Position numbers and translations under genes: made by a program. Below are positions 40,712 through 59,875 of a stretch of 64,000 bases of DNA, piece after piece (position 1 is the first letter of the stretch; every line of letters starts with the position of its first letter). Source of the DNA: Hyphomicrobiales bacterium (lineage in GTDB: Bacteria > Pseudomonadota > Alphaproteobacteria > Rhizobiales > Rhizobiaceae). The stretch covers positions 1-64,000 of the forward strand of contig UCAG01000004.1 in the NCBI GenBank assembly GCA_900470285.1, written 5' to 3'. A model generated the notes under the pieces. That model saw nothing but the letters and a program-made list of their open reading frames with translations. It searched no databases and had not been told where the DNA came from.

Positions 40712-40714
40712 ACG

Positions 40715-41665: not shown

Positions 41666-41671
41666 ACACTG

Positions 41672-42592: not shown

Positions 42593-42608
42593 TGGAGAGG
42601 GAAGCACA

Positions 42609-43250
42609 ATGTCATCTGTCATCTGGCCGAATTTGAAACGCTCACTGGTGGCGATCATTCGCGGTATCCGCAATGATGAGGTTGAGCCGATGCTTGAAGC
42701 TCTTATTACAGAAGGGTTCGAGATTATTGAGATTCCGCTGAACTCACCGGAGCCGTGGGTTTCGATTGACCGCGCGGTGAAACTATTCGGTGACAAAGTG
42801 CTGATCGGTGCCGGAACCGTGCTGACAACAGAAGATGCACAGCGGCTGGCAGATATTGGCGGGCGGATTATGGTGAGCCCGAATACGGATGCCGATGTTA
42901 TCCGCCATGCAACTTCCTGCGGGCTGATTACCATGCCTGGTTGTTATACGGCGAGTGAGGCTCTGCTGGCGATCCGCAGTGGCGCTTCCGCATTGAAATT
43001 CTTTCCTGCCGGTTCTCTTGGCCCTTCAGGTATCGCGGCGATTAAAACCATTCTGCCGAAGGATGCTGTTGTCGGGGCTGTCGGTGGTGTTTCCGATCAG
43101 AATTTCGGAGATTATGCCCGCGTGGGTGTGCGCACATTCGGCATAGGTTCCAGCCTTTATAGATCAGGGGACAGTGCGGAAACTGTGCAGGCAAAAGCCC
43201 GTCTGACAATCACGGCCTATGACGAGGTTTTTGGTGGTGAGCATGGCTGA
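42609..43250 (+). CDS. dgoA: 2-Dehydro-3-deoxy-6-phosphogalactonate aldolase
   Basis: A 213-residue class I aldolase of the KDPG/KDPGal family. The catalytic Glu is in FEIIEIPLNSP, and the Schiff-base Lys is in ALKFFPAGSLGPSG. It splits KDPGal into pyruvate and glyceraldehyde 3-phosphate. The start at 42609 (MSSVIWPNLKRSL) has GAGAGGGA upstream; the frame is also open from 42585. It overlaps the lactonase gene by eight bases. DgoA in this class lacks the fused dehydratase, which is encoded separately at 45153. Confidence 0.92.
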   Translation: MSSVIWPNLKRSLVAIIRGIRNDEVEPMLEALITEGFEIIEIPLNSPEPWVSIDRAVKLFGDKVLIGAGTVLTTEDAQRLADIGGRIMVSPNTDADVIRHATSCGLITMPGCYTASEALLAIRSGASALKFFPAGSLGPSGIAAIKTILPKDAVVGAVGGVSDQNFGDYARVGVRTFGIGSSLYRSGDSAETVQAKARLTITAYDEVFGGEHG

Positions 43251-44121: not shown

Positions 44122-44133
44122 CCGGAGGCTGCC

Positions 44134-45060
44134 ATGAGCATCATCACGTTGAAAAACCAACAATTTGAAGCGCATATTGCTAGCCAGGGCGGCACGGTAC
44201 ATGGCTTGTGGTGGTACGATCAGGGGCGGATTATTCCCTTGCTGCGTGAAGCCAAACATGCCGATGCAGCACCGGTTGAAACCGGTGGTTTTCCGCTCAT
44301 CCCGTTCGGCAACCGTATTCCGCAAAATCACTTCAGTTTTGAGGGGCGGGACTATCATTTTCAGGCCAATACAGATGATGATCCGCTCTATATTCATGGC
44401 GAAAGCTGGCAAGGTCTCTGGCAGATTACAGAGCAGTCAGAAAACCGGCTTGTACTGCGCTTTACCCATAATAAAGCCGATGCTGCTTTTATCTATGAAG
44501 CGGAACAGAATTTTACACTGGATGAAACCGGTTTCACTCTCTCCATGCGTGTGACAAATAAAGGGGAAAAAGCCATGCCGTTCGGCCTTGGCTGGCATCC
44601 TTATTTTCATCTGACCGAGCAAACACAGCTACAACTCAACGCTCAGAAAATGTGGACGCAAGGGGCCGGTTATTTACCGGAAAACCGCGTCAATATTCCC
44701 GATGATCTGAATTTCAGCAGAATGAAAAAAATTCCCGATCATTGGGTGAATAACGGGTTTGAGGGATGGGACGGCACTGCGCGACTTGTCTGGCCGGAAC
44801 AGAATACAGCGCTGACCATGAATGCCGACCCGTTGTTTGACCGGTTCTTTCTCTATGCGCCGCATGGTGTGCCGGAGTCGCAATCCCGCTCGGATTATTT
44901 TTGTCTGGAGCCGATGTCTCATATGGCGGGCGATCATTGCCGTGACGGTTATGGTGGTTTGAAAATATTGCAGCCTGCTGAAAGCCTGTCAGGAACAATT
45001 CGTTTGCAGCCTGAGCAAGCTAAAGCATTTCCAGCAAAAGTGGGAACCGGTTTTGCGTAG
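44134..45060 (+). CDS. Aldose 1-epimerase (mutarotase) family protein
   Basis: A 308-residue beta-sandwich protein with NRIPQNHFSF and the catalytic-site His segment GLGWHPYFHL (about residues 151-160). It should equilibrate sugar anomers before the dehydrogenase. The last dozen residues (AKAFPAKVGTGFA) are read from a family 2 intergenic repeat starting at 45023, and the stop TAG lies in the repeat, so the C-terminal tail was probably rewritten by the insertion. Confidence 0.88.
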   Translation: MSIITLKNQQFEAHIASQGGTVHGLWWYDQGRIIPLLREAKHADAAPVETGGFPLIPFGNRIPQNHFSFEGRDYHFQANTDDDPLYIHGESWQGLWQITEQSENRLVLRFTHNKADAAFIYEAEQNFTLDETGFTLSMRVTNKGEKAMPFGLGWHPYFHLTEQTQLQLNAQKMWTQGAGYLPENRVNIPDDLNFSRMKKIPDHWVNNGFEGWDGTARLVWPEQNTALTMNADPLFDRFFLYAPHGVPESQSRSDYFCLEPMSHMAGDHCRDGYGGLKILQPAESLSGTIRLQPEQAKAFPAKVGTGFA

Positions 45061-45122
45061 GATAATGCGTAAAACAAAGATTTAGAGCGGTTTAGACAAT
45101 TCAGTTCTAACTGGAACCGCTC
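45023..45122 (+). repeat. Composite double-palindrome repeat, family 2, overlapping a gene end
   Basis: A full copy of the element at 33123-33223. It starts AAGCATTTCC, has GGATAATGC near its middle, and ends GGTTTAGAC...CTGGAACCGCTC. It contains the stop codon of the mutarotase gene and ends 30 bases before the dehydratase start. Confidence 0.88.
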
Positions 45123-45152
45123 GAAAAATCAGGTCTATAAAAGGGTAACAGA

Positions 45153-46301
45153 ATGAAAATCACCAAGCTCACGACCTATATTGTGCCGCCGCGCTGGCTG
45201 TTTGTGAAAGTGGAAACCGATGAGGGTATTTCCGGCTGGGGAGAGCCGATTGTTGAAGGGCGTGCGCTGACAGTTGAAGCGGCGGTGCATGAGCTGTCTG
45301 ATTATCTGATCGGCAAAGATCCGTTTCTGATCGAAGACCATTGGAATGTCATGTATCGCGGCGGGTTTTATCGTGGTGGTGCTGTGCATATGAGTGCCAT
45401 TGCCGGTATTGATCAGGCGCTATGGGATATTAAAGGCAAAGCACTGAATGTGCCGGTGCATCAGTTGCTGGGCGGACAATGCCGCGACCGGATTAAAGTC
45501 TATTCATGGATCGGTGGTGATCGTCCGTCTGACGTGGCACGCAATGCGAAAGAAATGGTGGAGCGCGGTTTTACAGCATTGAAGCTCAATGGAGCGGAAG
45601 AGTTGCAGATCGTTGACAGCTATGCCAAGATTGATGCGATTGTCGAGACGATTGGTACAGTGCGTGATGCGGTCGGCCCGCATGTCGGGATTGGGGCGGA
45701 TTTCCATGGCCGCGTGCATCGCCCGATGGCGAAAGTGCTGGCCAAAGCGCTCGATCCGTTCCGGCTGATGTTTATTGAAGAGCCGGTCTTATCCGAAAAT
45801 TATGAAGCGCTGAAAGAGATCGCCAATCATACGTCCACGCCGATTGCATTGGGAGAGCGTCTTTATTCCCGCTGGGATTTCAAGAATATTCTCTCCGACG
45901 GTTATGTGGATATTATTCAGCCGGATTTGTCCCATGCGGGCGGGATCACCGAATGCCGCAAGATTGCTTCGATGGCTGAAGCTTATGATATTGCACTGGC
46001 GCCGCATTGCCCGCTGGGGCCGATTGCTCTGGCTGCCTGCCTGCAGATTGATGCGGTGAGTTATAATGCCTTCATTCAGGAGCAGAGCCTGAATATCCAT
46101 TATAATCAGGATAATGACATTCTGGATTATATCACCAATCGTGAGGTCTTCGATTACAAGGACGGCTTTGTGGCTATTCCGCAGGGGCCGGGTCTGGGTG
46201 TCGATGTTGATGAAGCCTATGTGATTGAACGGGCAAAAACCGGCCATCGCTGGCGCAATCCGGTGTGGCGTCACGAAGATGGCAGTTTTGCTGAATGGTA
46301 A
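45153..46301 (+). CDS. dgoD: D-galactonate dehydratase (enolase superfamily)
   Basis: A 382-residue member of the mandelate-racemase branch of enolases. Metal ligands appear in ADFHGR, FIEEPV and [10 protein letters not shown], and the catalytic His in APHCPLGPI, the DgoD pattern. It dehydrates D-galactonate to 2-keto-3-deoxygalactonate for DgoK. Length is typical. Related enzymes act on other aldonates, but DgoK and DgoA in the same operon support galactonate or its close analogues such as D-fuconate. Confidence 0.92.
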
Positions 46302-46328
46302 TGCGGGCGTTCAAAAAGGATAAATATC

Positions 46329-47108
46329 ATGGCTGATCGTCTGATCGGAAAACGCATTGTTGTCACCGGCGCGGCGCAGGGGATCGGCCTTGCGATTGCG
46401 CAATGTTTTGGCCGCGAGGGAGCGGCGCTGTTCCTGATTGATACGGACGGGGCATTGCTGGAAAAAGAGGTGCTGGCCTTACGGGAAAGCGGCGTTAAGG
46501 TGGGCTTTGCTCAGGCGGATATCTCCGATGCCAAAGCGATTGCAAATGCTTTTATTCAGGCTGATGCGGAAATCGGGCAGATTAATGCACTGGTCAATAA
46601 TGCGGGGATCAATGTCTTCAGTAAACCGCTGGAAATGGATGATGAAGCATGGAACCGTTGCTTCGATGTTAATCTGAAAGGCGCGTGGAATTGTTGTAAG
46701 GCTGTGTTGCCGCGTCTGATTGAGCAGGGTGGCGGTACTATTCTCAATATTGCTTCCACCCATTCTTTCACGATTATCCCGCACACATTTCCTTATCCGC
46801 TGGCGAAACATGCCTTGCTCGGCATGACCAAATCGCTGGGGCTGGAATATGCGCCACAGCAGATACGCGTGAATGCTATTGCACCGGGCTATGTGCTGAC
46901 GCAGAAGAATGTGGATTATTGGAACAGTTTTCCTGATCCGGAGGCAGCAAAGGCTGAAACGATGCGGTTGCATCCGGGCGGGCGCATTGCCAGCACACAG
47001 GAAATCGCGATGGCGGCCGTGTTTATGATTTCAGACGAGTGCCCGTTTATGACCGCAACCTGCCTGACAATCGACGGCGGTTTAAGTGTTTTGCAACACG
47101 CGGTTTAA
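46329..47108 (+). CDS. SDR-family sugar 1-dehydrogenase
   Basis: A 259-residue short-chain dehydrogenase. The NAD(P)-binding motif TGAAQGIG is at 14-21, with NNAG, the catalytic Ser in NIASTHS, and YPLAK as the Tyr-x3-Lys pair. In this operon it should oxidise D-galactose or a related aldose to the lactone, the first step of the pathway. The final gene of the operon, it ends in a terminator that overlaps the convergent kinase gene. Confidence 0.88.
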   Translation: MADRLIGKRIVVTGAAQGIGLAIAQCFGREGAALFLIDTDGALLEKEVLALRESGVKVGFAQADISDAKAIANAFIQADAEIGQINALVNNAGINVFSKPLEMDDEAWNRCFDVNLKGAWNCCKAVLPRLIEQGGGTILNIASTHSFTIIPHTFPYPLAKHALLGMTKSLGLEYAPQQIRVNAIAPGYVLTQKNVDYWNSFPDPEAAKAETMRLHPGGRIASTQEIAMAAVFMISDECPFMTATCLTIDGGLSVLQHAV

Positions 47109-47124: not shown

Positions 47125-47158
47125 GGAGATCAGTCCGCCGGACTGATCTCCTGTTTTT
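47125..47158 (+). terminator. Terminator of the sugar-oxidation operon
   Basis: GGAGATCAGTC/GACTGATCTCC is an 11-bp perfect stem with five T after it. It overlaps the last codons and stop of the convergent PfkB kinase gene at 47130. Confidence 0.85.
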
Positions 47159-48044
47159 GTAAGAAGGCTGTGCCGCCGGCTGCCTGCACGGCCAGACTGC
47201 CGGACTGAATACCGGCATTGAGTGCCGTTTGCGCGTCTGCCCCTGAAAGCCATGCATTGATGAAACCGGCATTGAAGGCATCACCTGCACCGGTGGTGTC
47301 AATAACCGGTACATTTTCAGCATGTGCATGAAGATTATGCTCATTTGAGCGCAACCATGCACCTTCCGCACCGCCTTTCAGCACAGTGACGGGAAAGGTT
47401 TCCGCGAGTTTATCGAGAGCGTCTTGCGGGTCTTCAAAACCGGTAATTGCCAGCGCTTCTTCTTTATTCGGCAGGAAGATATCAATACCTGCGCAAGCCT
47501 TGAGCAGAGCCGGATCATAGATCAGGGTCTCGTCCCAGCTTGGATCGAGCGAGACTGTGAGGCCGTGTGCCTTGGCACGGTGCACAAGATCAGGAATCTC
47601 ATGCAGCGTTGCATATTCCGCAATATGCAAATGGCCTGCCTGAGACCAAGTGAGCGCGGCATCCAATGTTACAGGCAGTGCAGTGCCTGCGCGACGCGAC
47701 AGGAAGGCACGGTCGTTGCCGATGACGCTGGCAACAGTCACCTGAGGGCCGGCATCTTTCGAACGCTCCAGAAATTGCAGATCAATGCCTGCGGCCTCCA
47801 GTTCCGGTGACAGACCGGCGGACAGAGCATCCAGACCGAGCCGTGCCACAAGGGCGGTTGTGCGGCCGGTATGTGCCAGATGCGCGGCGGTGATATAGGC
47901 ACCGCCACCGGCTGCCATTTTCAGATTATCGGCAAAGACTTCACGTCCCGGTTCCGGCAAAGCTGCCAGACCGGTAAAAATCAGATCGCAGTAAATCCGC
48001 CCGATGCTGAGAACGGCCGGATGCTGATTGTCTTTCAAACTCAT
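47130..48044 (-). CDS. PfkB-family carbohydrate kinase
   Basis: A 304-residue ribokinase-fold kinase. The catalytic motif DTTGAGDAFNAGF lies near residue 245, with an N-terminal glycine-rich AAGGGAYITAAHLA segment. It should phosphorylate the sugar or nucleoside released by the pathway. It overlaps the UgpC-like ATPase gene by four bases and is the last gene of a six-gene minus-strand operon. Confidence 0.9.
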   Translation of the reverse strand: MSLKDNQHPAVLSIGRIYCDLIFTGLAALPEPGREVFADNLKMAAGGGAYITAAHLAHTGRTTALVARLGLDALSAGLSPELEAAGIDLQFLERSKDAGPQVTVASVIGNDRAFLSRRAGTALPVTLDAALTWSQAGHLHIAEYATLHEIPDLVHRAKAHGLTVSLDPSWDETLIYDPALLKACAGIDIFLPNKEEALAITGFEDPQDALDKLAETFPVTVLKGGAEGAWLRSNEHNLHAHAENVPVIDTTGAGDAFNAGFINAWLSGADAQTALNAGIQSGSLAVQAAGGTAFLQKQEISPAD

Positions 48045-49087
48045 AGACGGCCCAGACTTTTCTCTGTCGCCTTGTCAAACAGATAGAGACTGCCGGTGGC
48101 TGCGTGTGCAGTCAGCGTGCTGCCGGTGGCCGGAATGAATTTGCCCGATGCAGTAGCGATAACTGCGGTGCCCTGTACATCAATATGCACCAGTGTTTCA
48201 GGCCCCAGCGGTTCAGCGGCGGTGACTGTGCCGGTCAGTTCAATACCAGTCGCCATTTTGCTTTCATCGCCGGTGACAACCATCAGATCATGCGGGCGGA
48301 TGCCGATGAGAATATCGCCGTCCGGTTTGAATTCGATGTTGTTACCGTTTTTGCGGCCTGCAATGAGGTTCATCGACGGGCTGCCGATAAAGCGGGCGGT
48401 AAAGACATCAACCGGATTTTCATAAAGCTCGGTTGGTGTGCCGGTCTGCAGAATATTACCGTCGCGCATCACCACAATCCGGTCTGCCATAGTCATGGCC
48501 TCCACCTGATCGTGGGTCACATAAACGGTTGTGGTCTTGAGGCGCTGATGCAGACGTTTGATCTCAATACGCATCTGGGCGCGTAATTGCGCGTCAAGAT
48601 TGGAAAGAGGTTCATCAAACAGGAAAGCAGACGGATTGCGCACCATCGCACGGCCAATGGCAACGCGCTGACGCTGGCCACCGGAGAGCGCAGCAGGGCG
48701 GCGATCCAGATATGGCTCGAGGCCGAGAATTTTTGCAGTTTCTTCAATACGGGCATTTTTATCCGCATTGGAGATTTTGGAGGTATAGAGACCGAAGCCG
48801 ATATTCTGACGTACAGTCATATGCGGATAGATCGCATAATTCTGGAACACCATCGCAATATTGCGCTGTTTCGGGTCACGCTCATTGACGACTTCATCGC
48901 CGATTTTCAGTGCGCCGCCGGAAATGTCTTCCAGACCGGCAATCATGCGTAGCGTCGTGGATTTGCCGCAGCCGGAAGGGCCGACGAAAACGACAAATTC
49001 GCCGTCGGCAATTTGCAGGTCAATGCCGCGCACGGCCTCAACCTTGCCATAGCGTTTAACCAGCTTGTTCAGTTCGATCGTTGCCAT
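48041..49087 (-). CDS. Carbohydrate ABC transporter ATPase (UgpC/MsmK type)
   Basis: A 348-residue ATPase with Walker A GPSGCGKST, signature LSGGQRQRV, Walker B FLFDEPLSNLD, H-loop VTHDQ and a C-terminal OB-fold regulatory domain (about 240-348) with DILIGIRPHDL. It serves the two sugar permeases of this operon. It abuts the lyase gene (single-base overlap) and overlaps the kinase gene. Confidence 0.92.
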   Translation of the reverse strand: MATIELNKLVKRYGKVEAVRGIDLQIADGEFVVFVGPSGCGKSTTLRMIAGLEDISGGALKIGDEVVNERDPKQRNIAMVFQNYAIYPHMTVRQNIGFGLYTSKISNADKNARIEETAKILGLEPYLDRRPAALSGGQRQRVAIGRAMVRNPSAFLFDEPLSNLDAQLRAQMRIEIKRLHQRLKTTTVYVTHDQVEAMTMADRIVVMRDGNILQTGTPTELYENPVDVFTARFIGSPSMNLIAGRKNGNNIEFKPDGDILIGIRPHDLMVVTGDESKMATGIELTGTVTAAEPLGPETLVHIDVQGTAVIATASGKFIPATGSTLTAHAATGSLYLFDKATEKSLGRL

Positions 49088-50601
49088 TAGCGTTTCTCCA
49101 CCAAGGCCTGAAATTTATCATTGAGCTCGCGCGCGGCTTTGGCCTCGTCTGCGGCTTGTGTGTCTGCAAGGCTTGCAAAGGCATTGGCCTGATCGCGGTA
49201 GGCTGCAAGTGCCTCAGCCATTGGCTCCGGTGCAGGGCCGCCGAAACGATCACGCACGGCGATGAAATGCTCCGGCGAAACCAGCTCTTCAAACTTTGTG
49301 CGGTCAAAAGACGGGTCTCGGCCTGCCGCATGTTTGAAGGCTTCCAGAAACGGCTCATAGCCGTCTTGTGCCAGCCCACCACCTTTGACAACAACGGCTT
49401 TGGCTACGGTTGCTGCAATCTCATGCGCCTGACGGAAGGACAGACCTTCAATACGCACCAGTGAATCTGCCAGCTCGGTAATAGTGATGCAGGAGCGGCG
49501 GATATTGTCGGCAACACGTGCCGGATCAATACGGATGGCCTGCACAAAGGTTGCCAGCAGATCGAGAACGCGACCAGCAGAAGCAAAGGCTTCATAGCCC
49601 ATTTGCTGAGTTTCGCCTTCACTGTCATTCATATCGGTGAAAGGCGTATTATGGATCACATCCAGCACAGTGCGGGCGCGACCCATAGTCTGGCTTGCCA
49701 GATGACGCATATGCTCAATCGGTACCGGATTGCGCTTCTGCGGCATGATTGAAGAGATTTGCACAAAAGCATTCGGCACATAGATCTGGCCAACCTCGAA
49801 GCTCGTCCAGAACTGGAAGTCCTGAATGAGACGGCCGAGATGGATAAACATCAGCTCAATCGCGGAATAGGTTGAGGTGATGTAATCCGAAGCGGCAATA
49901 CAGCTGTAAGAATTGCGTAAAGGCGCGGCAAAGCCCAACAGGTCAGCCACGCGTGCGCGGTCGATGGGAAAACCTGAGGTGGTGATGGCTGCCGCGCCCA
50001 TAGGTGACAGGTTGACGATTTCACGCGCTGTTGCAAAACGCTGCATATCGCGGATCAGCACTTCAATTGCTGCGGACAGATAATGGCCGAAGGTTGAAGG
50101 CTGTGCAGGTTGACCATGCGTATAGGCCACAATCAGCGTTGCCTGTTCGCGGTTTGCAGTTTCAATCATCGCATTAAGCAGATGACGGGACTTGGCCAGC
50201 AGAACATCAATATGTTCTTTGAGGCCGAGTTTGAACAGCGTGTGGTCGATATCATTACGTGAACGTGCAGTGTGCAGGCGACCGGCAATATCCGCACCGA
50301 GACGGGACTTCAGTTCTTTTTCAATCAGGAAGAAGAAGTCCTCAACTTCACCGGTATAGGTGAGGGATGCCGGATCAATATCACGGTCGATCTGTTCCAG
50401 CGCACCGGCGATTGCCGATGCCTGTTTTTCGTCGAGAATGCCGGTTTCCGTCAGCATCACCAGATGGGCGCGGTCAATACGGCGGAAGCTTTCGACATGA
50501 TGGGTTTTAGCGCCATCAAAAAGCGGTTTCAGCACGGTCTCCTTGTAGACCGGATCAGGGAAAACGCTTTTATCGGCAAGGCGCGGATCGTTTACAGACA
50601 T
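49087..50601 (-). CDS. Argininosuccinate lyase-family paralogue in a sugar operon
   Basis: A 504-residue fumarase/aspartase-superfamily lyase most like ArgH: HTARSRND at 110-117, YTHGQPAQP at 160-168 and SSIMPQKRNP at 283-292. The family eliminates fumarate from N- or O-linked succinyl compounds. Three things argue against housekeeping arginine synthesis: its place between sugar-importer genes, a length above the usual 460 residues, and GAAAITTSG where ArgH has a GAGALAG-like stretch. The substrate may be a sugar-aspartate or sugar-malate conjugate, which is inference. Confidence 0.82.
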   Translation of the reverse strand: MSVNDPRLADKSVFPDPVYKETVLKPLFDGAKTHHVESFRRIDRAHLVMLTETGILDEKQASAIAGALEQIDRDIDPASLTYTGEVEDFFFLIEKELKSRLGADIAGRLHTARSRNDIDHTLFKLGLKEHIDVLLAKSRHLLNAMIETANREQATLIVAYTHGQPAQPSTFGHYLSAAIEVLIRDMQRFATAREIVNLSPMGAAAITTSGFPIDRARVADLLGFAAPLRNSYSCIAASDYITSTYSAIELMFIHLGRLIQDFQFWTSFEVGQIYVPNAFVQISSIMPQKRNPVPIEHMRHLASQTMGRARTVLDVIHNTPFTDMNDSEGETQQMGYEAFASAGRVLDLLATFVQAIRIDPARVADNIRRSCITITELADSLVRIEGLSFRQAHEIAATVAKAVVVKGGGLAQDGYEPFLEAFKHAAGRDPSFDRTKFEELVSPEHFIAVRDRFGGPAPEPMAEALAAYRDQANAFASLADTQAADEAKAARELNDKFQALVEKR

Positions 50602-50611
50602 TATAGTATCC

Positions 50612-51463
50612 TTATCCCTTGAGGCCGGCCAGCATGACGCCGCGCACGATATAGCGCTGCAGCAACAGGAACACGAGCAGGGTTGGCAGGGTGGCGATAG
50701 CGGCGCCGGTCATAATCATTTCCCACTGGATCGATTGCTCGACCGCGAAACTCGAAAGCCCGACAGGCAATGTGTAGAGTTCCTTGCTGGTGGTGACGAT
50801 CAGCGGCCAGAAGAAGGCCGTCCAATTACCGAGGAAGGTGAAGATTGCCAGAGCCGACAGTGCCGGTGTGACCAGTGGCATGGCCACTTTCCACCAGATC
50901 TGGAATTCGTTCAGACCATCCACACGGGCAGCTTCGAGAAAGTCATTCGGCACGCCTTCAAAGAACTGCTTCATAAGGAAGGTACCAAAAGCCGTCATCA
51001 TACCCGGGAACATGATGCCCCAATAGCTGTCGAGCCAGCCGAGTTTGCTCGACATCAGATACCACGGGATCACCAGCATTTCGGTCGGGATCATCAGGGT
51101 CGACAGAATGGCGAGGAAGATGAAGTGGCGGCCACGGAACTGGAATTTTGCCAATGTGTAGCCGACAAGACTGTCGAAAAACACGTTGGATAATGTGACG
51201 ACAACCGCGACGAACATCGAGTTGAAGAACCAGCGCAGGAAGCGCCCGTCCGCCAGAATGGTGACATAGTTCTGTACTGTCGGTTCAGCCGGTATCAGAC
51301 GCAGATCATAGACCTGACTGGCGGTTTTGAACGAGGTGGAGAACATATAGGCCAGCGGCGTGACCATGATGATACCGCCGATAAACAGCAGTGTCCATGT
51401 GAGGACGCGGCCTGGCCGGATATTTGCAAACGGGAGTGCCGGTGTTTTGGTTTCAGCGGTCAT
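50612..51463 (-). CDS. Carbohydrate ABC transporter permease (MalG/UgpE type)
   Basis: A 283-residue inner-membrane subunit with six hydrophobic segments and the docking loop EAARVDGLNEFQIWWKVAMPLVTPAL (about 192-217). The start at 51463 overlaps the stop of the first permease gene and has GAGGG upstream. It pairs with the MalF-type permease for uptake of an unidentified sugar or sugar conjugate. Confidence 0.9.
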   Translation of the reverse strand: MTAETKTPALPFANIRPGRVLTWTLLFIGGIIMVTPLAYMFSTSFKTASQVYDLRLIPAEPTVQNYVTILADGRFLRWFFNSMFVAVVVTLSNVFFDSLVGYTLAKFQFRGRHFIFLAILSTLMIPTEMLVIPWYLMSSKLGWLDSYWGIMFPGMMTAFGTFLMKQFFEGVPNDFLEAARVDGLNEFQIWWKVAMPLVTPALSALAIFTFLGNWTAFFWPLIVTTSKELYTLPVGLSSFAVEQSIQWEMIMTGAAIATLPTLLVFLLLQRYIVRGVMLAGLKG

Positions 51464-52383
51464 TTCTTTTCCCTCAAAACCCACAGCTGCAACAGTGAGA
51501 CAACCAGCAGAATGGAGAACAGCACGACTGTCTGTGCAGCGGCATAGCCCATGGCATAAGACGAGAAGGCAGTTTGATAGATCATCATCACCAATGGCTT
51601 GGTGGAACCAAGCGGGCCACCCGGATCATAGGTAGTCATATTATAGACCTGATCGAAAATGCGCAGGAAGCCGATGGACGAGAAGACGACCAGAAACACG
51701 GTTGTCGGTTTTAGCAATGGTATGGTGATTTTGCGCAGGATCGCCCAGTCACCCAAGCCGTCAATGCGGGCGGCTTCGTAATAGGTGTTAGGAATAGCAC
51801 GCAGACCAGCCATGAAAATAATGATCTGGAAGCCGAGACCAGCCCAGATGGATGTCGCCATAATAGAATAAAGCGCCTGATCCACTGACCGCAGAAATGT
51901 CTGCTGTGGCAGGCCGAGGCTGCTGAGCATATTATTGATCACGCCGATTGGTGCCGGCTGATAGAACCAGCGCCAGACCCAGCCCATTGCCGCCGCAGTG
52001 GTGAGAAACGGCAGGAAATACAGCCCACGGATCAGCCCGTGCATGAAACGAACACGATCCAGATAATAGGCGATGATAAACGCCAAAAACAGGCTGACGG
52101 GTGTGCCGATAAGCAGGTAAGTGAACGTGTTTTTGAACACTTTCCAGAATTGCGGATCCGCGAACAGCTTTTCATAATTCGCAAGGCCGATAAATTTCGG
52201 CGGTTTCATCAGATCCCAGTTGGTCAGCGATAACCAGAATGCTTCAACGGTAGGATAAAACCGGATGACCGTATAAAACAGGATAGGGATACTCAGAAAG
52301 CTCCATACCCAGATCAGCCGCCTCGTGCGCATAGGCAGGCGGTTCCAGAAAGTATCACCGGAGCGGGCAGCCGTCACAGTCAT
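51460..52383 (-). CDS. Carbohydrate ABC transporter permease (MalF/UgpA type)
   Basis: A 307-residue inner-membrane subunit with six hydrophobic segments and the docking loop YYEAARIDGLGDWAILRKITIPLLKP (about 207-232). It follows the binding-protein gene after a 196-base gap that contains a strong hairpin and overlaps the second permease gene by four bases. Confidence 0.9.
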   Translation of the reverse strand: MTVTAARSGDTFWNRLPMRTRRLIWVWSFLSIPILFYTVIRFYPTVEAFWLSLTNWDLMKPPKFIGLANYEKLFADPQFWKVFKNTFTYLLIGTPVSLFLAFIIAYYLDRVRFMHGLIRGLYFLPFLTTAAAMGWVWRWFYQPAPIGVINNMLSSLGLPQQTFLRSVDQALYSIMATSIWAGLGFQIIIFMAGLRAIPNTYYEAARIDGLGDWAILRKITIPLLKPTTVFLVVFSSIGFLRIFDQVYNMTTYDPGGPLGSTKPLVMMIYQTAFSSYAMGYAAAQTVVLFSILLVVSLLQLWVLREKK

Positions 52384-52537
52384 GGTTCAAAATACCTTAT
52401 GGTACGGGAGCATATCCGACAAAACGGCATTGCAGCCTTGTCCGGAAATATGCCTCAACAAATATCAAAGGCCATAGCCGGTTCCGGCTTTATGCAGTGG
52501 CATCCGCAGTTTCATAGCTTGGCGATGAAACAAAAGC

Positions 52538-52567
52538 TGCCGTGTCGCTCTTAGCGGCGACACGGCA
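52538..52567 (-). terminator. Intercistronic hairpin after the binding-protein gene
   Basis: TGCCGTGTCGC/GCGACACGGCA is an 11-bp perfect stem with an eight-base loop, 13 bases beyond the binding-protein stop and ahead of the permease genes. There is no T-run on the transcribed side. Confidence 0.55.
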
Positions 52568-52579
52568 GATAATCAGATT

Positions 52580-53827
52580 TTACTGAGCGTCGTCGATAAT
52601 GGTCTGCTCAGCCTTGGCAGCTTGTGCAAGGGACTCTTTCACAGGCTGTTTTTCAAGAATGACACGGTTCACCATATCCATTGCTGTCTGGCGCTGGGCA
52701 GCTTCATCCACAAACATAGTGGTGTGAGCATAATCCAGACCTTTCAGGAACGGACCGTAGATCGGGTCTGCCAGATTGGCTTCGGTCTGGGCAACCGCGC
52801 GGCGGGCAGGCAGCTCGCCAACTTCCTTGAGCCAGATTTCCATCGCTTCCGGCGAGGAAATATAGTTCAGGAACTTCTTGGCGGCTTCGAGCTTTTCGCC
52901 CTTGGCGTTAGCGCCGATACCGTTAGCAAAGTAGCTGGCATAGTTGGAACGTACGCCGTCGGCATTGGCCGGCAGTTCGGTTACACCCCATTCAAAATCC
53001 TTAATGGTGCGGAATGCGCCGAGGCGGAATGTGCCGTCCACAGTCATGGCAGCCATGCCTGCGCGGAATGCAGCCTGACCTTCGTCCATGAATTTCGGCT
53101 CGCCGACTTTCTTTTCAGTCTGCAGATCAGTGTAGAATTTCAGCGCTTTTTCACCGGCTTCGGAATCATAGGCGACTTTGCGGTCATTATCAGTGTAAGG
53201 CACGCCGCCATATTGACGGATCAGAACTTCACGCCACCAATGGTGATCCTGACCAGCCATATCCATGGTGATACCGGCAGTGGTCAGATTGCCGTTTGCA
53301 TCGCGTTTTGCGGTTTTTTCCGCAGCGGCAACCAGTTCATCCAGTGTTTTTGGCGGGTTTTTAGGGTCAAGATCGGCTTCTTCAAAGAGCTTCTTATTGT
53401 AGAACAGTGCCAGCGAACGTACCGCAGTCGGCAGACCATAATAGTCTTCGCCGCGCTTCATCGCACTGGTGATCGGGAAGAAATCGCTCTCGATCTTATC
53501 ATGCGGGAATGTATCGGTTGGCAGCGGCTGCAAAATGCCGCCTGCTACGAATTTATCGAGCCAGCCATAGAAAAGCTGCATGACATCAGGGCTGTTGCCA
53601 GCCATTTTGGCTGCAATTACGCGGGTCTGATAATCATCATAAGGGAAGGTGGTGTGCTTGACCTTGATGTCTGGATTAGCTTTTTCGAAATTCTCGATCA
53701 GCTTGTCCATCGCTTTAACGCGCGATTCAAAGACATATTGCCAATATTCAATTTCAACAGCCTGCGCTGCATTGAGCGCCATTGTGCTGAAGCCTGCGAG
53801 CAATCCCGCAAATAATAATTTACGCAT
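52580..53827 (-). CDS. Carbohydrate ABC transporter substrate-binding protein
   Basis: A 415-residue family 1 extracellular binding protein with a signal peptide (MRKLLFAGLLAGFSTMALNAAQA). The mature domain has the family features IEYWQYVFESRVKAMDKLIENFEKANPDIKVK and GMAAMTVDGTFRLG. It starts the minus-strand operon and is divergent from the ROK regulator gene. Ligand is unknown; the lyase and deacetylase nearby suggest an N-acetylated sugar conjugate. Confidence 0.9.
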   Translation of the reverse strand: MRKLLFAGLLAGFSTMALNAAQAVEIEYWQYVFESRVKAMDKLIENFEKANPDIKVKHTTFPYDDYQTRVIAAKMAGNSPDVMQLFYGWLDKFVAGGILQPLPTDTFPHDKIESDFFPITSAMKRGEDYYGLPTAVRSLALFYNKKLFEEADLDPKNPPKTLDELVAAAEKTAKRDANGNLTTAGITMDMAGQDHHWWREVLIRQYGGVPYTDNDRKVAYDSEAGEKALKFYTDLQTEKKVGEPKFMDEGQAAFRAGMAAMTVDGTFRLGAFRTIKDFEWGVTELPANADGVRSNYASYFANGIGANAKGEKLEAAKKFLNYISSPEAMEIWLKEVGELPARRAVAQTEANLADPIYGPFLKGLDYAHTTMFVDEAAQRQTAMDMVNRVILEKQPVKESLAQAAKAEQTIIDDAQ

Positions 53828-54134
53828 GTGAACCTCCCCTTATGACCTCCGGCTGCTGCCGGTATCAGGCAAAAATACAGTTTTATGCATGTTGTTTCCG
53901 AAACGGCAGCCCGTTTTGGGGTGACATGCGTCAGCAATCAGTGTTCGGAAATTGCATCTTCGTCAAAGACCGGTTGGCAGCTTTGCCCCTTCAGATGTGT
54001 TTTCCTCCGCAGAGCTGCCCTCTACGGTCACTATTTTACAGGCTTTTGTCAATAAGATAATTTACTTGAGTTAATCTATTGCGGTTATGAAGGCTCTCGC
54101 TTATCATTTTTTGAGACGGGCAGGACGGAACAGC
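53828..54134. other. Divergent control region between importer and ROK genes
   Basis: About 300 bases without a gene. It holds the promoters for both arms of the locus and the imperfect palindrome at 54061-54074. I see no other repeat. Confidence 0.5.
54061..54074 (+). promoter_or_regulatory. Possible ROK-regulator operator
   Basis: TTTACTTGAGTTAA is a palindrome with one mismatch in the arms, lying in an AT-rich stretch just before the ROK gene. Assignment to the ROK protein rests on position only. Confidence 0.3.
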
Positions 54135-55364
54135 ATGGGCGCACAGCCGGCAGGTACACAATCGGGCACAGAATCAGGCACACAGCTGATTACTTTGGGT
54201 AAAAACCCTGAGCGAATCCGCGATCACAATCGTCGGGTGGTGCTGGATATTGTGCGCCAGCACGGTTCCCTGGGGCGGATGCATATTGCCCGCCTGACCC
54301 ATCTGACGGCTCAGGCGATTGCTAATATTGTCGATGAACTGGTCTGTGAAAATCTGTTGATGGAGACCGGAAGGCTCAAATCCGGACGCGGCCAGCCGCC
54401 CAAACAATTCGCAGTCAATCCTGACGGCGCTGTAACGATGGGTGTTGAAATGGCATCCGATCACATGGTGACGACGGTGCTTGATCTGACAGGGCAACCT
54501 CGTTCCCGCCATATTACACCGGTGCATGATACCAGCCCTGACGCGCTTTCCGGCTTGTTGCGTATACAGGTTGATACTGTGAAAGCGGAGTTTTCCGCAC
54601 CGTTGCTGGGTGTCGGTGTGGTGATGCCGGGGCCGTTCGATATTGAAGGCATGACCTCTGTCGGGCCGACCACTTTGCCGGGCTGGTCAGATGTGGATGC
54701 AGCTGCCATTTTAGGCGAGGCTTGCGGTGAGCCGGTTACCATCGAGAATGACGCGAATGCGGCAGCGGTGGGAGAGCGCCTGTTTGGTGCGGGACATGCC
54801 ATTTCCTCTTTTGCGATGATCTATTTCGGTGCCGGTGTCGGCCTTGGCATGATTCAGGACGGAGTGCCGTTTCGCGGCGCTTTCGGCAATGCCGGTGAAA
54901 TCGGACATATTGTGGTAGCGCCAAAAGGCCGGGCCTGCCCCTGCGGTCAGGCCGGTTGTCTGGAACGCTATGCATCGCTGTATGTCCTGCGGGAAAAACT
55001 GGCTTTGACGGGCGTAACGGAAACAGATTTTGACGATCTGCAGAAATTGCATGACAGCGCTCATCCGGTGCTGATGGAATGGATGGATGAGGCCGCACTC
55101 TATTTGGCACCGATGATTGCCATGATCGAAAATATTCTCGATCCGGAAACGGTAGTATTGGGCGGTATGTTACCCGATACGATTATCGACGGATTGATTG
55201 CACGGATGGGGCAGTTGCCGATTTCCGTTGCGAGCCGTCGTAGCCGTGCTTTACCGCGTGTGCTGCGCGGTCATACCGGACAATTTACGGCGGCTTTGGG
55301 TGCCGCTGCTCTGCCTTTGTTTGAAGCGATGACCCCGAAACTGGATACGCTCGCTGACTTGTAA
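54135..55364 (+). CDS. ROK-family transcriptional regulator
   Basis: A 409-residue NagC/Mlc-type protein with an N-terminal winged helix-turn-helix (GRMHIARLTHLTAQAIANIVDELV) and a C-terminal ROK sugar-kinase-like domain. The zinc-site motif GRACPCGQAGCLERYAS and the ATP-fold ENDANAAAVGE are present. It is divergent from the importer operon and directly upstream of the PIG-L gene. The likely inducer is the imported sugar. The start at 54135 has AGGA nine bases upstream; an ATG at 54087 is also in frame. Confidence 0.88.
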   Translation: MGAQPAGTQSGTESGTQLITLGKNPERIRDHNRRVVLDIVRQHGSLGRMHIARLTHLTAQAIANIVDELVCENLLMETGRLKSGRGQPPKQFAVNPDGAVTMGVEMASDHMVTTVLDLTGQPRSRHITPVHDTSPDALSGLLRIQVDTVKAEFSAPLLGVGVVMPGPFDIEGMTSVGPTTLPGWSDVDAAAILGEACGEPVTIENDANAAAVGERLFGAGHAISSFAMIYFGAGVGLGMIQDGVPFRGAFGNAGEIGHIVVAPKGRACPCGQAGCLERYASLYVLREKLALTGVTETDFDDLQKLHDSAHPVLMEWMDEAALYLAPMIAMIENILDPETVVLGGMLPDTIIDGLIARMGQLPISVASRRSRALPRVLRGHTGQFTAALGAAALPLFEAMTPKLDTLADL

Positions 55365-55388
55365 TTCATTCTTGTGAGGAGGCATCCG

Positions 55389-57800
55389 GTGCTGACTGAC
55401 CGCCAACATATTGAACGACAAAAATCGGCACCGGCACTTGTGCGCCTGCATCATGCATTAAGCCGGTTACGCTCGGTTGTGACAGTCATGAATACCGGCG
55501 CGCATCCCGATGACGAGCAGAGCGGCTTACTGGCTAATTTTCGTTTTGGCGTTGGTATGCGGGTGATTATCGCTTGTTCCACCCGCGGTGAGGGCGGGCA
55601 GAATGCACTGGGACCGGAACGCAGCGGTGCATTGGGACTGATGCGTTCCCGTGAAATGGAAGAAGCCGCGCGGATACTGGATTGCGATATTGCATGGCTT
55701 GGTCACGGGCCGGATGATGCGGTGCATGATTTCGGCTTTTCCAAAGATGGCGACCGGACTTTCGATCGCTGGGGCGAGGAGCGTATTGTCGAGCGCCTTG
55801 TGCGTGCTTATCGCAGTGAGCGGCCGGATATTGTAATTCCGACATTTCTTGATGTGCCGGGGCAGCATGGTCATCACCGTGCGATGACCCGCGCAGCGGA
55901 ACGAGCCATTGCGCTGGCTGCTGACAATCAGGCTTTTCCTGAGCATTTTGCGCAAGGTCTGAAGCCTTGGCAGGTTGCGAAATATTATCTGCCTGCATGG
56001 TCTGGCGGGGGCGATACTTATGATGATGAAGTGCCGCCGCCGGAAGCAACATTGACAGTGCGGGCTGAGGGACGTGAACCGGCAACGGGTGCGGATTATG
56101 ACCACATCGGGGAATGGTCGCGTTATTATCATGCGTCGCAGGGTATGGGACATTGGCCGGAGCAGCCAAAAATACAGTGGCCTTTGCATCTGCTGCTGGC
56201 AGAGAAGACTGGCGCAGAGGCTTCCGTACTGGATAATCTGCCAGCTGATCTGGCAGCCTTGGCGGCTTATGCGAGCATGCCCGAAGCTGTCGCTAAAGCA
56301 TTACAAGATGTGCAAAAAGCGATTGATAGCGCCATTGCCGCGTTCCCTGACCGTGATGCAATCATCGCTTCTCTGGTATCGGCTGCGCACAATATTGATA
56401 CTGTCCGAGCCAATGCACCGGCAGATTTTCTGCTCGCGCATGAGCATCGTCTTTTACGCAAGAAGACCGAGATTGATGCTGCACTGATTGAAGCTGTAGC
56501 GATTTTTGATAGTGCAGAGCTGAACCCGCCGGTGATGTCACCTGCCGGTGAAGCTTTGTTGCAGGTGCGGTTTGGTGCTGGTCATGCGCAATATCAGGCG
56601 CAGGTTGAACCGATTTTGCCGGAGTATTGTGCGGCTTATGTGCATGAGACAACCGCGACCACTCAGTCCTTTGATATAAATGCCGGAGTAGAGACGGCTT
56701 TCAGTCCGCTTTATCGGCCGGTCTGGTCTTCGCTTGGTGGTAATGGCGAATTCTATGTGTGTGTGACGGCACAATTCTCGGACTATCAGGCCAAAGCGAG
56801 TTTCGATCTTGCTGAACAGTTTGCGCTGGTACCTGCCCAGTCTGTGCGGATTGAGCCTGAGGCGGTGATTGTTCCGCTTGATCAGGCTACGCAAATACAA
56901 TGGCCGGTGAATGTAACTGTCAGTGGTGATCCGCAGCCTGTGCGTTTTATCAGCAATGGTGGCTGGACGGTTGTGCAGAATGAAGGGGATGCAACACTTT
57001 GCGCACCGGAAAAACCGAAAGCCGGACTGTTCCGCTTACAAGCACAAATTGCCGGCCGTGATGCGGTGCGGCAGACGCCAGTTTCCTATCCGCATATCGG
57101 GCGGGTGATGTATCGCGAGCCGGAATTATTGAATGTGCTGGCGCTGGATCTGAAACTGCCGCAAGGGGCAAAGATCGGTTATATCGGCGGTGGCGCTGAT
57201 CGTGTTGGTCTGTGGCTGAGCCGTATGGGGCTTGATGTAACGGAACTGGAGCCGAAACATCTGGCCGGTGATCTGCAGCAATTCACGAGTATTGTTGTCG
57301 GTATTTTTGCTTTTGGCCTAAGGAGCGATCTGGCGGAGGCAACAGCACGCTTGCATACCTATGTTGAAAATGGCGGTCATTTGCTGACGCTTTATCATCG
57401 CCCTACCGATGGCTGGAACCCGCAGACAACACCGGTGCGCCCGTTGAAAATCGGTTCACCCTCGCTGCGCTGGCGGGTGACTGATCCCGCAGCAGCTGTC
57501 ACCGTTCTGGCACCGGAGCACAGATTGCTCAACTGGCCGAATTGCATAACAGATGAGGACTGGCGGGGCTGGAACAAAGAACGCGGGCTGTATTTCGCCT
57601 CCCATTGGGATGCGGTCTATCAGCCGCTGCTATCCATGCATGATGCCAATGAGCAGCCGTTGACCGGTGCACTTTTGTCTGCACGGATTGGCAAAGGGCG
57701 GCACACGCACACCAGTCTTGTGTTGCATCACCAGATGGACAGGCTGGTGGCGGGGGCATTCCGTCTGATGGCCAATCTGGTGAGCGGGGAAGCTGAATAG
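55389..57800 (+). CDS. Large PIG-L/LmbE-family deacetylase
   Basis: An 803-residue protein. The N-terminal third is a PIG-L zinc deacetylase domain with the AHPDDE motif (His39, Asp41, Asp42) and a distal HGHH at 160-163, the ligand set used to remove acetyl from N-acetylglucosaminyl compounds in mycothiol and bacillithiol synthesis. The remaining 500 residues include beta-rich and a C-terminal Rossmann or amidotransferase-like part (AKIGYIGGGADRVG, YVENGGHLLTLYHRP). No signal peptide is seen. The start is GTG at 55389 behind GAGGAGG. It is 24 bases after the ROK gene. Confidence 0.85.
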   Translation: MLTDRQHIERQKSAPALVRLHHALSRLRSVVTVMNTGAHPDDEQSGLLANFRFGVGMRVIIACSTRGEGGQNALGPERSGALGLMRSREMEEAARILDCDIAWLGHGPDDAVHDFGFSKDGDRTFDRWGEERIVERLVRAYRSERPDIVIPTFLDVPGQHGHHRAMTRAAERAIALAADNQAFPEHFAQGLKPWQVAKYYLPAWSGGGDTYDDEVPPPEATLTVRAEGREPATGADYDHIGEWSRYYHASQGMGHWPEQPKIQWPLHLLLAEKTGAEASVLDNLPADLAALAAYASMPEAVAKALQDVQKAIDSAIAAFPDRDAIIASLVSAAHNIDTVRANAPADFLLAHEHRLLRKKTEIDAALIEAVAIFDSAELNPPVMSPAGEALLQVRFGAGHAQYQAQVEPILPEYCAAYVHETTATTQSFDINAGVETAFSPLYRPVWSSLGGNGEFYVCVTAQFSDYQAKASFDLAEQFALVPAQSVRIEPEAVIVPLDQATQIQWPVNVTVSGDPQPVRFISNGGWTVVQNEGDATLCAPEKPKAGLFRLQAQIAGRDAVRQTPVSYPHIGRVMYREPELLNVLALDLKLPQGAKIGYIGGGADRVGLWLSRMGLDVTELEPKHLAGDLQQFTSIVVGIFAFGLRSDLAEATARLHTYVENGGHLLTLYHRPTDGWNPQTTPVRPLKIGSPSLRWRVTDPAAAVTVLAPEHRLLNWPNCITDEDWRGWNKERGLYFASHWDAVYQPLLSMHDANEQPLTGALLSARIGKGRHTHTSLVLHHQMDRLVAGAFRLMANLVSGEAE

Positions 57801-57934
57801 AGCATTGGTCTGATATTTAGGACAGTCTAGTGCAATTCCGCTGACTACAATAAAACCATTCCATGATTATGTTTCTGTCATTGAGCTCTGTTGCTGAGAA
57901 TCTCGCAGCAGACAACGAACGGACAGGTGTACTC

Positions 57935-59062
57935 ATGCAATTTGGAATTTTTACCGTCGGTGACGTAACAACTGATCCGACAACCGGCAAAACCCCGAGC
58001 GAACATCAGCGGCTGATGTCGATGATGAAATATGCACTGAAGGCAGAAGAAGTCGGTCTCGACGTTTTCGCTACCGGAGAACATCATAATCCGCCATTTG
58101 TGCCGTCTTCACCGACAACCATGCTGGGCTGGATTGCGGCTAAAACCAGCAAGATTCAGCTGACGACCTCGACCACGCTGATTACCACCAATGATCCGGT
58201 GAAGATTGCCGAGGATTTTTCGATCCTGCAACATCTGGCAGATGGTCGTGTCGATCTGATGATGGGGCGCGGTAATACAGGGCCGGTTTATCCGTGGTTT
58301 GGTAAGGATATCCGCGAGGGTATTCCGCTGGCGATTGAGAATTATCATCTGCTGCGCCGCTTGTGGCGTGAAAAGACCGTGGACTGGCAGGGTCAGTTCC
58401 GCACGCCTCTGCGCGGTTTTACACTGGCACCGGCACCGCTGGATGATACGCCGCCATTTGTCTGGCACGGCTCGATCCGCAGTACGGAAATTGCTGAACA
58501 GGCTGCGTTCTACGGGGATGGTTTCTTTGCAAATCACATCTTCTGGAACAAAGAGCACACGCAGCAGATGATCAATCTGTATCGCTCACGCTTTGAACAT
58601 TATGGTCATGGCAGTGCGGATCAGGCGATTGTCGGTCTTGGCGGGCATATTTTCATGCGCAGGAACAGTCAGGATGCCATTCGTGATTTCCGGCCTTATT
58701 TCAATAATGCGCCGGTTTATGGTCACGGGCCATCCATGGAAGACTTTATGGAAATGACCCCGCTGACTGTCGGTTCGCCGGAGCAGGTGATCGAGAAAAC
58801 ACTGAGCTTTGCTGATTATGCCGGTCATTATCAGCGTCAGTTGTTCCTCGTCGATCATGCAGGTCTGCCGGAAGAGATGGTGCTGGAACAGATTGAGCTG
58901 TTGGGCACGGAAGTGGTGCCGGTGTTGCGCAAAGAGTTTGAAGCGCGCCGCCCGTCCCATATTCCGAGCGATCCGCCAAGCCACGCAAGCCTGCGTGCAC
59001 AGGGGCCGGATGGTAAACACCGTAAGGTGATGCCAGCTGAAACAATAGATCAGCCAGCCTGA
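57935..59062 (+). CDS. Luciferase-like flavin monooxygenase (CE1758-type)
   Basis: A 375-residue TIM-barrel LLM-class oxidoreductase that uses reduced FMN. Characteristic parts are GLDVFATGEHHNPPF, STTLITTNDPVKIAEDFSILQHLADGRVDLMMGRGNTGPVYPWFG. The next gene is an FMN reductase of the family that is normally paired with this monooxygenase type, so they form a two-component system. The start at 57935 (MQFGIFTVGDVTTD) follows AGGTG; upstream codons lack family support. Substrate is unknown. Confidence 0.88.
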   Translation: MQFGIFTVGDVTTDPTTGKTPSEHQRLMSMMKYALKAEEVGLDVFATGEHHNPPFVPSSPTTMLGWIAAKTSKIQLTTSTTLITTNDPVKIAEDFSILQHLADGRVDLMMGRGNTGPVYPWFGKDIREGIPLAIENYHLLRRLWREKTVDWQGQFRTPLRGFTLAPAPLDDTPPFVWHGSIRSTEIAEQAAFYGDGFFANHIFWNKEHTQQMINLYRSRFEHYGHGSADQAIVGLGGHIFMRRNSQDAIRDFRPYFNNAPVYGHGPSMEDFMEMTPLTVGSPEQVIEKTLSFADYAGHYQRQLFLVDHAGLPEEMVLEQIELLGTEVVPVLRKEFEARRPSHIPSDPPSHASLRAQGPDGKHRKVMPAETIDQPA

Positions 59063-59125
59063 GACAGGTTTGATTAAGGGGCAGGGATATCTCTGTTCCT
59101 TCCCTGCCAATGAACGGAGATAATT

Positions 59126-59800
59126 ATGACACGTCGTATTCTTGTTTTGACTGCTGGTCTGTCGCAGCCATCATCAACCCGTATGCTGGCAGATCAGATC
59201 GCACAGGCAACAGCTGCACAAATCGGTGCGCGCGGTGAAGAGGCGCAAATTGAGGTCATCGAGCTGCGCGAGCTGGCTATGGACTTGGCCACCACTATGG
59301 CGACCGGCGGCATTCCGACCCCGCATCTCTCTGAGGTTAAAGAGAAAATCTCTGCGGCTGACGGACTGATTGCGGTCACACCAGTTTTCACCGCCAGCTA
59401 TAGCGGGCTGTTTAAAATGCTGTTCGATGCTCTGGATACTAATGCATTGAACAATATGCCGGTGATTATTGCGGCAACAGCGGGAACAGCCAGACATTCT
59501 CTGGTGCTGGAACATGCCCTGCGGCCGTTGTTCTCTTATCTGCGTGCAACCGTGGTTCCGACCGGCGTTTTCGCTGCGACTGAAGATTTTGGCAGCGGTG
59601 AAGCCGGACATGATCTGTCTTCCCGCGTGCAACGTGCGGCCAGTGAATTTGCAGCGCTGGTGGTGGCTGAGAAAAGCGGTGTCGGTGGTTTTGTTCCGAA
59701 TATCGGCGATCAGCGCAAGCGGGATTCCGGTGTGCAGCTTAGCCAGACGGTTACACCATTTGCGCAATTGCTGAAAGGGCGCACCGGCACAGCCGGTTGA
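59126..59800 (+). CDS. NAD(P)H-dependent FMN reductase (CE1759-type)
   Basis: A 224-residue flavodoxin-fold reductase (LVLTAGLSQPSSTRMLADQI phosphate loop, then TPVFTASYSGLFKMLFDALD). It should reduce FMN for the luciferase-like monooxygenases on both sides. GGAGA precedes the start. It lies 64 bases after the first monooxygenase gene and 76 before the second, all in one direction. Confidence 0.88.
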   Translation: MTRRILVLTAGLSQPSSTRMLADQIAQATAAQIGARGEEAQIEVIELRELAMDLATTMATGGIPTPHLSEVKEKISAADGLIAVTPVFTASYSGLFKMLFDALDTNALNNMPVIIAATAGTARHSLVLEHALRPLFSYLRATVVPTGVFAATEDFGSGEAGHDLSSRVQRAASEFAALVVAEKSGVGGFVPNIGDQRKRDSGVQLSQTVTPFAQLLKGRTGTAG

Positions 59801-59875
59801 TAAACAGACAGCGACACATATTTAGAAAATTCAAAGTGCGGGCATTGAGATGCCGCACTGAAAGGAGCCAGTATT

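Follow-up and report, generated by a model that had tools for sequence, protein, structure and literature searches.

An ArgH-like lyase and a large PIG-L enzyme in a sugar-importer locus: a candidate route for the catabolism of N-acyl-glucosaminyl-malate

The first 64,000 nucleotides of contig UCAG01000004.1 from a Hyphomicrobiales bacterium (Rhizobiaceae; assembly GCA_900470285.1), hereafter the window, contain a locus in which a ROK-family regulator and a large PIG-L enzyme face a CUT1 sugar importer, a paralogue of argininosuccinate lyase (ArgH) and a PfkB-family kinase. The locus is real, conserved and functionally coherent. We propose, with slightly better than even confidence, that it is a catabolic operon for N-acyl-glucosaminyl-malate, most likely the bacillithiol core or its precursor N-acetylglucosaminyl-malate (GlcNAc-malate), which PIG-L and the lyase would dismantle; the general logic of import, deacylation and elimination we hold more firmly than this substrate. 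An initial annotation had outlined uptake of an N-acetylated sugar linked to aspartate or malate, deacetylation, elimination of fumarate and phosphorylation of the sugar. Genomic context, residues and folds support that outline, as a prediction rather than as chemistry, and we infer a sharper form of it, in which a glucosamine-releasing lyase would act after a PIG-L N-deacylase.

A lyase family set apart from ArgH by its sequence

The source genome (3.8 Mb, 99.76% complete) encodes a second ArgH at C10:513607-515004, which begins with the usual WGGRF and carries canonical motifs. The lyase is thus a paralogue of argininosuccinate lyase, as the initial annotation had claimed, and the objection that it might be the sole ArgH of its genome falls away. 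With this second copy present and sugar import genes as its neighbours, the window lyase does not have the setting of an arginine-synthesis enzyme. It does exceed the cut-off of the NCBI argH equivalog model, TIGR00838 (Table 1), which is presumably why relatives are labelled argH in plasmid records.

We aligned 103 lyase-family rows, drawn from the window, same-order genomes, plasmid records and a scan of genome contigs, of which at least two (L036/L069) are exact duplicates of each other, with 30 canonical ArgH sequences from the same order. Window numbering runs level with that of duck delta-crystallin, as judged by the structure-entry titles T161D and S283A, and we assume the remaining positions to correspond as well. 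T161, H162, S283, K289 and N291 are invariant in all 133 rows. The positions that we take to bind the arginine part of argininosuccinate behave quite differently: canonical ArgH has R238 in 30/30, Y323 in 29/30, Q328 in 30/30 and K331 in 30/30 rows, whereas each of these residues occurs in 0/103 lyase-family rows. The family instead has D323 in 103/103 and E328 in 102/103 rows, together with the motif HNTPF-D. Acids at the site where ArgH holds the arginine end would plausibly suit a protonated amino sugar.

The SS-loop pattern SS--P-K-N is present in 133/133 rows, and the window lyase has I at the first G of GSSxxPxKxN, given as the SS-loop consensus of the aspartase/fumarase superfamily in the pertinent part of PMC13411527. 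Its AlphaFold model (pLDDT 92.0) finds EDDS lyase and ArgH as best Foldseek matches, about equal, with a TM-score of 0.84 to EDDS lyase 6g3d, so that both loop and fold place it in this superfamily. In a midpoint-rooted tree the 30 ArgH sequences form a clade with support 1.0 and the 103 lyase rows, which span several phyla, have support 0.757. Judged from sequence, the lyase represents a new aspartase/fumarase-superfamily family, distinct from ArgH. Public records call it argininosuccinate lyase, which is likely a systematic misannotation; since these lyases pass the argH model, arginine synthesis may be wrongly credited to genomes.

Association of the lyase with PIG-L enzymes

Co-occurrence was scored in 199 same-order genomes, including the window's own (thresholds E 1e-80 for the lyase, E 1e-20 for PIG-L), and in 197 genomes of the Paenibacillus dendrobii family (E 1e-120 and E 1e-60), with relatives weaker than these thresholds counted as absent. 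In the same order, 18/199 genomes have the lyase and 13 have the large PIG-L, all 13 among the 18 and 0 among the 181 others (Fisher p 1e-16); counted by genus, PIG-L occurs in 7/10 genera with the lyase and 0/90 others (Fisher p 7e-9). PIG-L and lyase share a contig in 11 of these 13 genomes, 4.5 to 4.8 kb apart. They lie on different contigs in G026 and G172, and the PIG-L of G026 is in pieces with a stop. Within the Paenibacillus dendrobii family the lyase is present in 26/197 genomes and PIG-L in 10, again all among the 26 (0/171 others, p 3e-10). Two of these ten were reached via lyase loci, and excluding them gives p 2e-8. Here PIG-L lies 0.45 to 1.35 kb from the lyase, and the ten carriers have the ten top-scoring lyases. 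The initial annotation's call for a co-occurrence check is thus answered in two unrelated lineages. Plasmid records follow suit, the 21 with PIG-L all falling among the 27 with the lyase. Aminobacter sp. MSH1 (lyase WP_108610343.1) and Shinella are among the lyase carriers; Aminobacter also has PIG-L, whereas no PIG-L gene adjoins the Shinella cluster.

The neighbourhood was compared in a panel of 47 close and 38 distant lyase loci, from which a duplicate contig (L069) and all loci below 11 kb had first been dropped, and in a control set of 20 canonical argH loci, out of 40 matches, from the order to which the window belongs. PIG-L lies within flanks of about 10 kb in 38/47 close and 17/38 distant lyase loci (16/37 if L097 and L104, 97.6% alike, are merged) and in 0/20 argH loci. 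PfkB, ROK, EamA and deaminase genes are likewise at 0 in the 20 controls, of which 11 have a UgpC-like ATPase gene nearby and 1 has CUT1 genes. PfkB occurs in 24/47 close clusters, and BadF in 9/38 distant and 1/47 close ones; these two counts stand for the kinases, as the panel does not separate ROK kinases from ROK regulators. Since the neighbourhood recurs across many genera and the argH controls lack PIG-L, PfkB, ROK, EamA and deaminase genes, the arrangement is not due to chance.

Clustering of 2207 unassigned open reading frames from 93 loci gave TonB-receptor-like, Firmicutes binding-protein (ten loci) and SDR groups, a group of LacI-like regulators of Shinella/Bosea type, lineage-specific neighbours and apparent antisense reading frames. 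The TonB-receptor-like genes are large, stand by the lyase in L086, L087, L088, L094, L098, L102, L105 and L117, and point to outer-membrane uptake. In 24/47 close loci PIG-L has an EamA/DMT transporter gene in its vicinity (for example L043:4088-4909), whose product perhaps exports the freed acyl part, such as a cysteine derivative.

The PIG-L enzyme

The window protein comprises a metal-dependent N-deacylase-type region (about 33-292), an Ig-like beta-sandwich (about 375-592) and a ThuA-like C-terminal part (about 597-808). It has the AHPDD motif, the distal His and the fold of PIG-L/LmbE enzymes, nearest to MshB and with chitobiose deacetylases and BshB also near. The window protein is without a signal-like N-terminus, as are the close-clade proteins (0/38), whereas 13/16 distant-clade proteins scored have a signal-like hydrophobic N-terminus (three more fall just below threshold), a few PIG-L rows having been shortened by script-chosen start codons. 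In the distant clade, deacylation can therefore precede uptake, and hence precede the lyase.

The released sugar

A few sister clusters add genes that would act on amino sugars. In Paroceanicella profunda (L039), the ATPase gene is directly followed by genes for a 403-aa ROK-family protein, either kinase or regulator, and for NagB, which scores 242.1 bits with TIGR00502 against a cut-off of 236.9. Roseomonas haemaphysalidis (L041) pairs a ROK kinase with a SIS protein, NagB-II-like at 313.4 bits; Bosea (L056) combines PfkB with a NagB-II-like SIS protein (323.1 bits), and Salinarimonas (L054) has a SIS gene beside an EamA gene (277 bits). These three SIS proteins miss the NF046059 cut-off of 430, with NagB-II still the best of all models for each. 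The solved glucosamine 6-phosphate deaminase 8eol scores 220 bits with the L041 protein, outranked by two structures to which no reaction is assigned. The SIS proteins of L034 and L036 are NagB-II-like by similarity to that of L041, while that of L087 scores best with GlmS (361 bits against 381). The model of the fructoselysine deglycase FrlB gives the SIS proteins 22-36 bits. In Paenibacillus (L100) the lyase is followed by a BadF-type kinase (GlcNAc-kinase model, 108.3 bits against 370) and a small PIG-L nearest BshB2 (114.7 against 195.25); between PIG-L and lyase in this locus of Paenibacillus sp. yr247 lies a creatininase-family gene (L100:9190-9972). Deaminase genes are few, in 4/47 close loci, 1/38 distant (L087) and 2/8 plasmid loci chosen from 27 records. 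The window genome encodes elsewhere a NagB-II-like protein (288.5 bits against 430) and two Glucosamine_iso-family proteins, which may be NagB or 6-phosphogluconolactonase. Deaminases from two unrelated families, together with kinases of amino-sugar type, point to glucosamine, which on these sequence affinities is most likely the released sugar.

Proposed pathway

We infer the substrate, the order of steps and the enzyme activities from the gene set, paralogy, residues, folds and co-occurrence computed here. The CUT1 importer would bring the sugar-malate conjugate into the cell, where PIG-L would remove by hydrolysis the acetyl or cysteinyl group that is amide-bound to the nitrogen of glucosamine, to give glucosaminyl-malate. 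By the anti-elimination typical of its superfamily, the lyase might then remove the sugar from the malate carbon, yielding fumarate and free glucosamine, with D323 and E328 binding the ammonium group at the place that in ArgH receives the arginine end. Glucosamine 6-phosphate would be formed by a kinase, PfkB in the window and of ROK or BadF type in certain relatives, which could instead phosphorylate the conjugate before the lyase acts. A deaminase, NagB or NagB-II, with candidate genes elsewhere in the window genome and next door in few relatives, would release fructose 6-phosphate and ammonia, and the ROK regulator could sense a sugar of the pathway.

L-malate is the configuration handled by fumarase. 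Bacillithiol is described as Cys-GlcN-malate, made from L-malate, in PMC4360819, and according to PMC13411527 the aspartase/fumarase superfamily forms fumarate from succinate derivatives by cleaving their C-N and C-O bonds. Between the two acids initially named, we judge malate the likelier and aspartate less so, because the LmbE/PIG-L enzymes covered in a 2014 review all use N-acylglucosamine cores, including GlcNAc-malate and bacillithiol conjugates (PMC4101496). BshC was not found in the window's own genome, which would therefore consume bacillithiol and not make it. Among lyase genomes (40 chosen from 80 loci), BshC is present in 0/13 Alphaproteobacteria and 24/27 others, a distribution that follows lineage and is non-discriminating. 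It is conceivable, at a little under an even chance, that Alphaproteobacteria lacking BshC and Firmicutes and Acidobacteria bearing it share a widespread and so far undescribed salvage route for bacillithiol-type thiols, in which the large PIG-L takes off the acyl group and the new lyase then breaks the bond to the sugar from the malate side. Such a route would yield fumarate, glucosamine as carbon and nitrogen, and perhaps cysteine.

Several observations weigh against glucosaminyl-malate as the substrate. PIG-L is absent nearby from 21/38 distant and 9/47 close loci, and some of the PIG-L-free lyase loci carry a metallo-beta-lactamase-fold or Amidohydro_2 gene instead, which may reflect other acyl groups or other substrates. 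The window PIG-L falls far below the curated cut-offs for BshB2 (29.8 against 195.25), MshB (29.8 against 224.35) and Mca (38.7 against 277.15), and the window PfkB kinase matches no specificity-assigned model above cut-off. No cysteine gene occurs among the reading-frame groups of four or more loci (2207 frames, 93 loci). In L024 (8002-10734) and L025 (9256-11980) the lyase has no importer and lies beside an lldD-like gene, resembling flavin mononucleotide (FMN)-dependent 2-hydroxyacid dehydrogenases.

At these last two loci a GntR-like regulator also stands beside the lyase; it and the lldD-like gene were named by eye. The metallo-beta-lactamase-fold gene occurs in lyase clusters L034, L036, L037, L042 (6178-7026) and L063 (6047-6889), of which only L063 has PIG-L, and its product is possibly an alternative route of acyl removal. 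In L096, L109, L113, L114, L121 and L122, from Firmicutes and Chloroflexota and free of PIG-L, the lyase is accompanied by Amidohydro_2 and CUT1 importer genes.

Alternative explanations

The same pathway logic might serve another N-acyl-amino-sugar C4-diacid unrelated to bacillithiol, possibly a larger one that PIG-L trims before the lyase acts. The TonB-receptor-like gene group that accompanies the lyase in 8 acidobacterial loci, an assignment made by eye, would suit a larger or scarce substrate, and the occurrence of Amidohydro_2 without PIG-L in 6/38 distant loci suggests that substrates may vary. We know of no other amino-sugar C4-diacid conjugate, which counts against this alternative. 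PMC6282198, moreover, ranks bacillithiol and its derivatives as the low-molecular-weight thiols most widespread among bacteria, and we consider a different conjugate unlikely. A rather smaller chance falls to a Heyns-type substrate, with aspartate N-linked to C2 of glucose, from which the lyase would directly release both glucosamine and fumarate, in the way that ArgH and PurB act on N-linked succinates. ArgH-type lyases do cleave C-N bonds (PMC13411527), and the product would again be glucosamine, consistent with NagB. The sugar amine of such a compound is, however, a secondary amine and not an amide, and an N-deacylase would be unneeded, yet PIG-L is the most constant partner of the lyase outside transport.

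An Amadori-type substrate, fructosyl-aspartate, could in principle be handled by a PfkB kinase and a SIS protein acting like the FraD/FraB or FrlD/FrlB pair, which the PfkB and SIS genes of L056 resemble. The SIS proteins fit NagB-II (277-323 bits, three proteins) or GlmS (L087) far better than the deglycase, and Paroceanicella carries NagB instead; we regard this route as very improbable and rejected it on the NagB-II and GlmS likeness. Hardly any weight goes to a true second argininosuccinate lyase that travels with a sugar importer. The TIGR00838 score and the argH labels in plasmid records speak for it, but all four arginine-side positions are replaced in every lyase-family row, a separate canonical ArgH is present, and the rest of the cluster consists of sugar import, kinase, regulator and PIG-L genes; the replaced residues and the second genomic copy led us to reject it. 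An aminopolycarboxylate lyase resembling EDDS lyase seems just as remote. By fold EDDS lyase ranks first, but ArgH folds match about equally and the best ArgH sequence score is higher (197 against 170 bits). The catalytic His, which the lyase family and ArgH keep, aligns with a Gln in EDDS lyase, and sugar importer, kinase and deaminase genes are unsuited to such a substrate. Gene context and the catalytic His were the grounds for rejection.

Relation to known systems and significance

The window lyase resembles ArgH (EC 4.3.2.1) in fold, in the motifs SRND, TH and SSIMPQK-N-P and in its model score, and differs from it in the arginine-side replacements and in being tied to PIG-L and sugar import, not to arginine genes. 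EDDS lyase (6g3d series) is the closest solved fold (TM-score 0.84) and is itself an ArgH relative recruited for catabolism, whereas the window locus has amino-sugar genes and PIG-L and its lyase retains the catalytic His. The PIG-L enzyme shares fold, metal-site motif and proposed substrate class with the bacillithiol deacetylase BshB, the S-conjugate amidase Bca and MshB; it is distinguished by its length of 808 aa, its Ig-like and ThuA-like parts and its catabolic neighbourhood. The archaeal chitobiose pathway reportedly comprises the PIG-L deacetylase Dac, a glucosamine kinase and the SIS deaminase GlmD, and is similar in placing PIG-L deacetylation before cleavage and a glucosamine kinase and SIS-type deaminase after it. 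A glycosidase is said to cut the bond there, whereas here a fumarase-superfamily lyase would do so from the aglycone side.

A literature search that covered few subscription papers gave, among the matches listed, no publication on a glucosaminyl-malate lyase or on bacillithiol catabolism. In its passage on glucosaminyl-malate, PMC4101496 says only that the compound is presumably recycled. If the proposal is true, the breakdown path would fill this gap in glucosaminyl-malate recycling and the fumarase superfamily would gain a glycoside-breaking activity. It would also show a passage of amino-sugar carbon and nitrogen between soil and marine bacteria.

Locus organization and neighbouring genes

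All eight genes named by the initial annotation were recovered in the list of open reading frames, at the expected positions and with Pfam and NCBIfam scores for the expected families (Table 1).

Table 1. Features of the lyase locus (window coordinates; scores in bits).
Feature	Position	Strand	Basis
PfkB-family sugar kinase	47130..48044	-	Pfam PfkB 129.6
UgpC/MalK-type ATPase of importer	48041..49087	-	NF008653 459.7 (cut-off 432)
ArgH-like lyase	49087..50601	-	Lyase_1 143.4; TIGR00838 303.5 (cut-off 279.5)
Importer permease (UgpE-like)	50612..51484	-	BPD_transp_1 73
Importer permease (UgpA-like)	51460..52383	-	BPD_transp_1 47.5
CUT1 sugar-type solute-binding protein	52580..53827	-	SBP_bac_1 141.1
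Intergenic region between the divergent genes, presumed site of promoters and of a ROK operator	53828..54086	none	gene coordinates
ROK-family regulator	54087..55364	+	ROK 156; NagC model 105.2 (cut-off 650)
Large PIG-L enzyme, 808 aa	55374..57800	+	N-deacylase-type, Ig-like and ThuA-like regions

Transcription on the minus strand would run from the binding protein through the two permeases, the lyase and the UgpC-type ATPase to the PfkB kinase. From the first permease to the kinase these genes overlap or are spaced 10 bases apart and so look like one operon, with a gap of 196 bases after the binding protein; the ROK and PIG-L genes diverge from them. The PfkB kinase reaches no NCBIfam equivalog cut-off, its best match being ribokinase (93.3 against 299.65), and the binding protein has no close or informative solved relative (best structure match 99.3 bits). 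The ROK regulator has a helix-turn-helix at its N-terminus by eye, and a look for inverted repeats in the divergent intergenic region gave short, unremarkable ones and no clear operator.

Adjoining the locus, positions 38080-47108 hold another sugar importer (binding protein, double ATPase and presumed permeases), an SMP-30-like gene, a galactonate dehydratase and an SDR; together they suggest a galactose/galactonate pathway distinct from the lyase locus. On the other side, at 57863-60913, an NADPH-dependent FMN reductase lies between two luciferase-like monooxygenases, the second named by eye. Farther off, the stretch 9919-20497 encodes enzymes of asparagine-synthetase-like and AMP-binding type close to a TonB receptor and an MFS_3 exporter, and is perhaps a small-molecule locus, conceivably for a metallophore.

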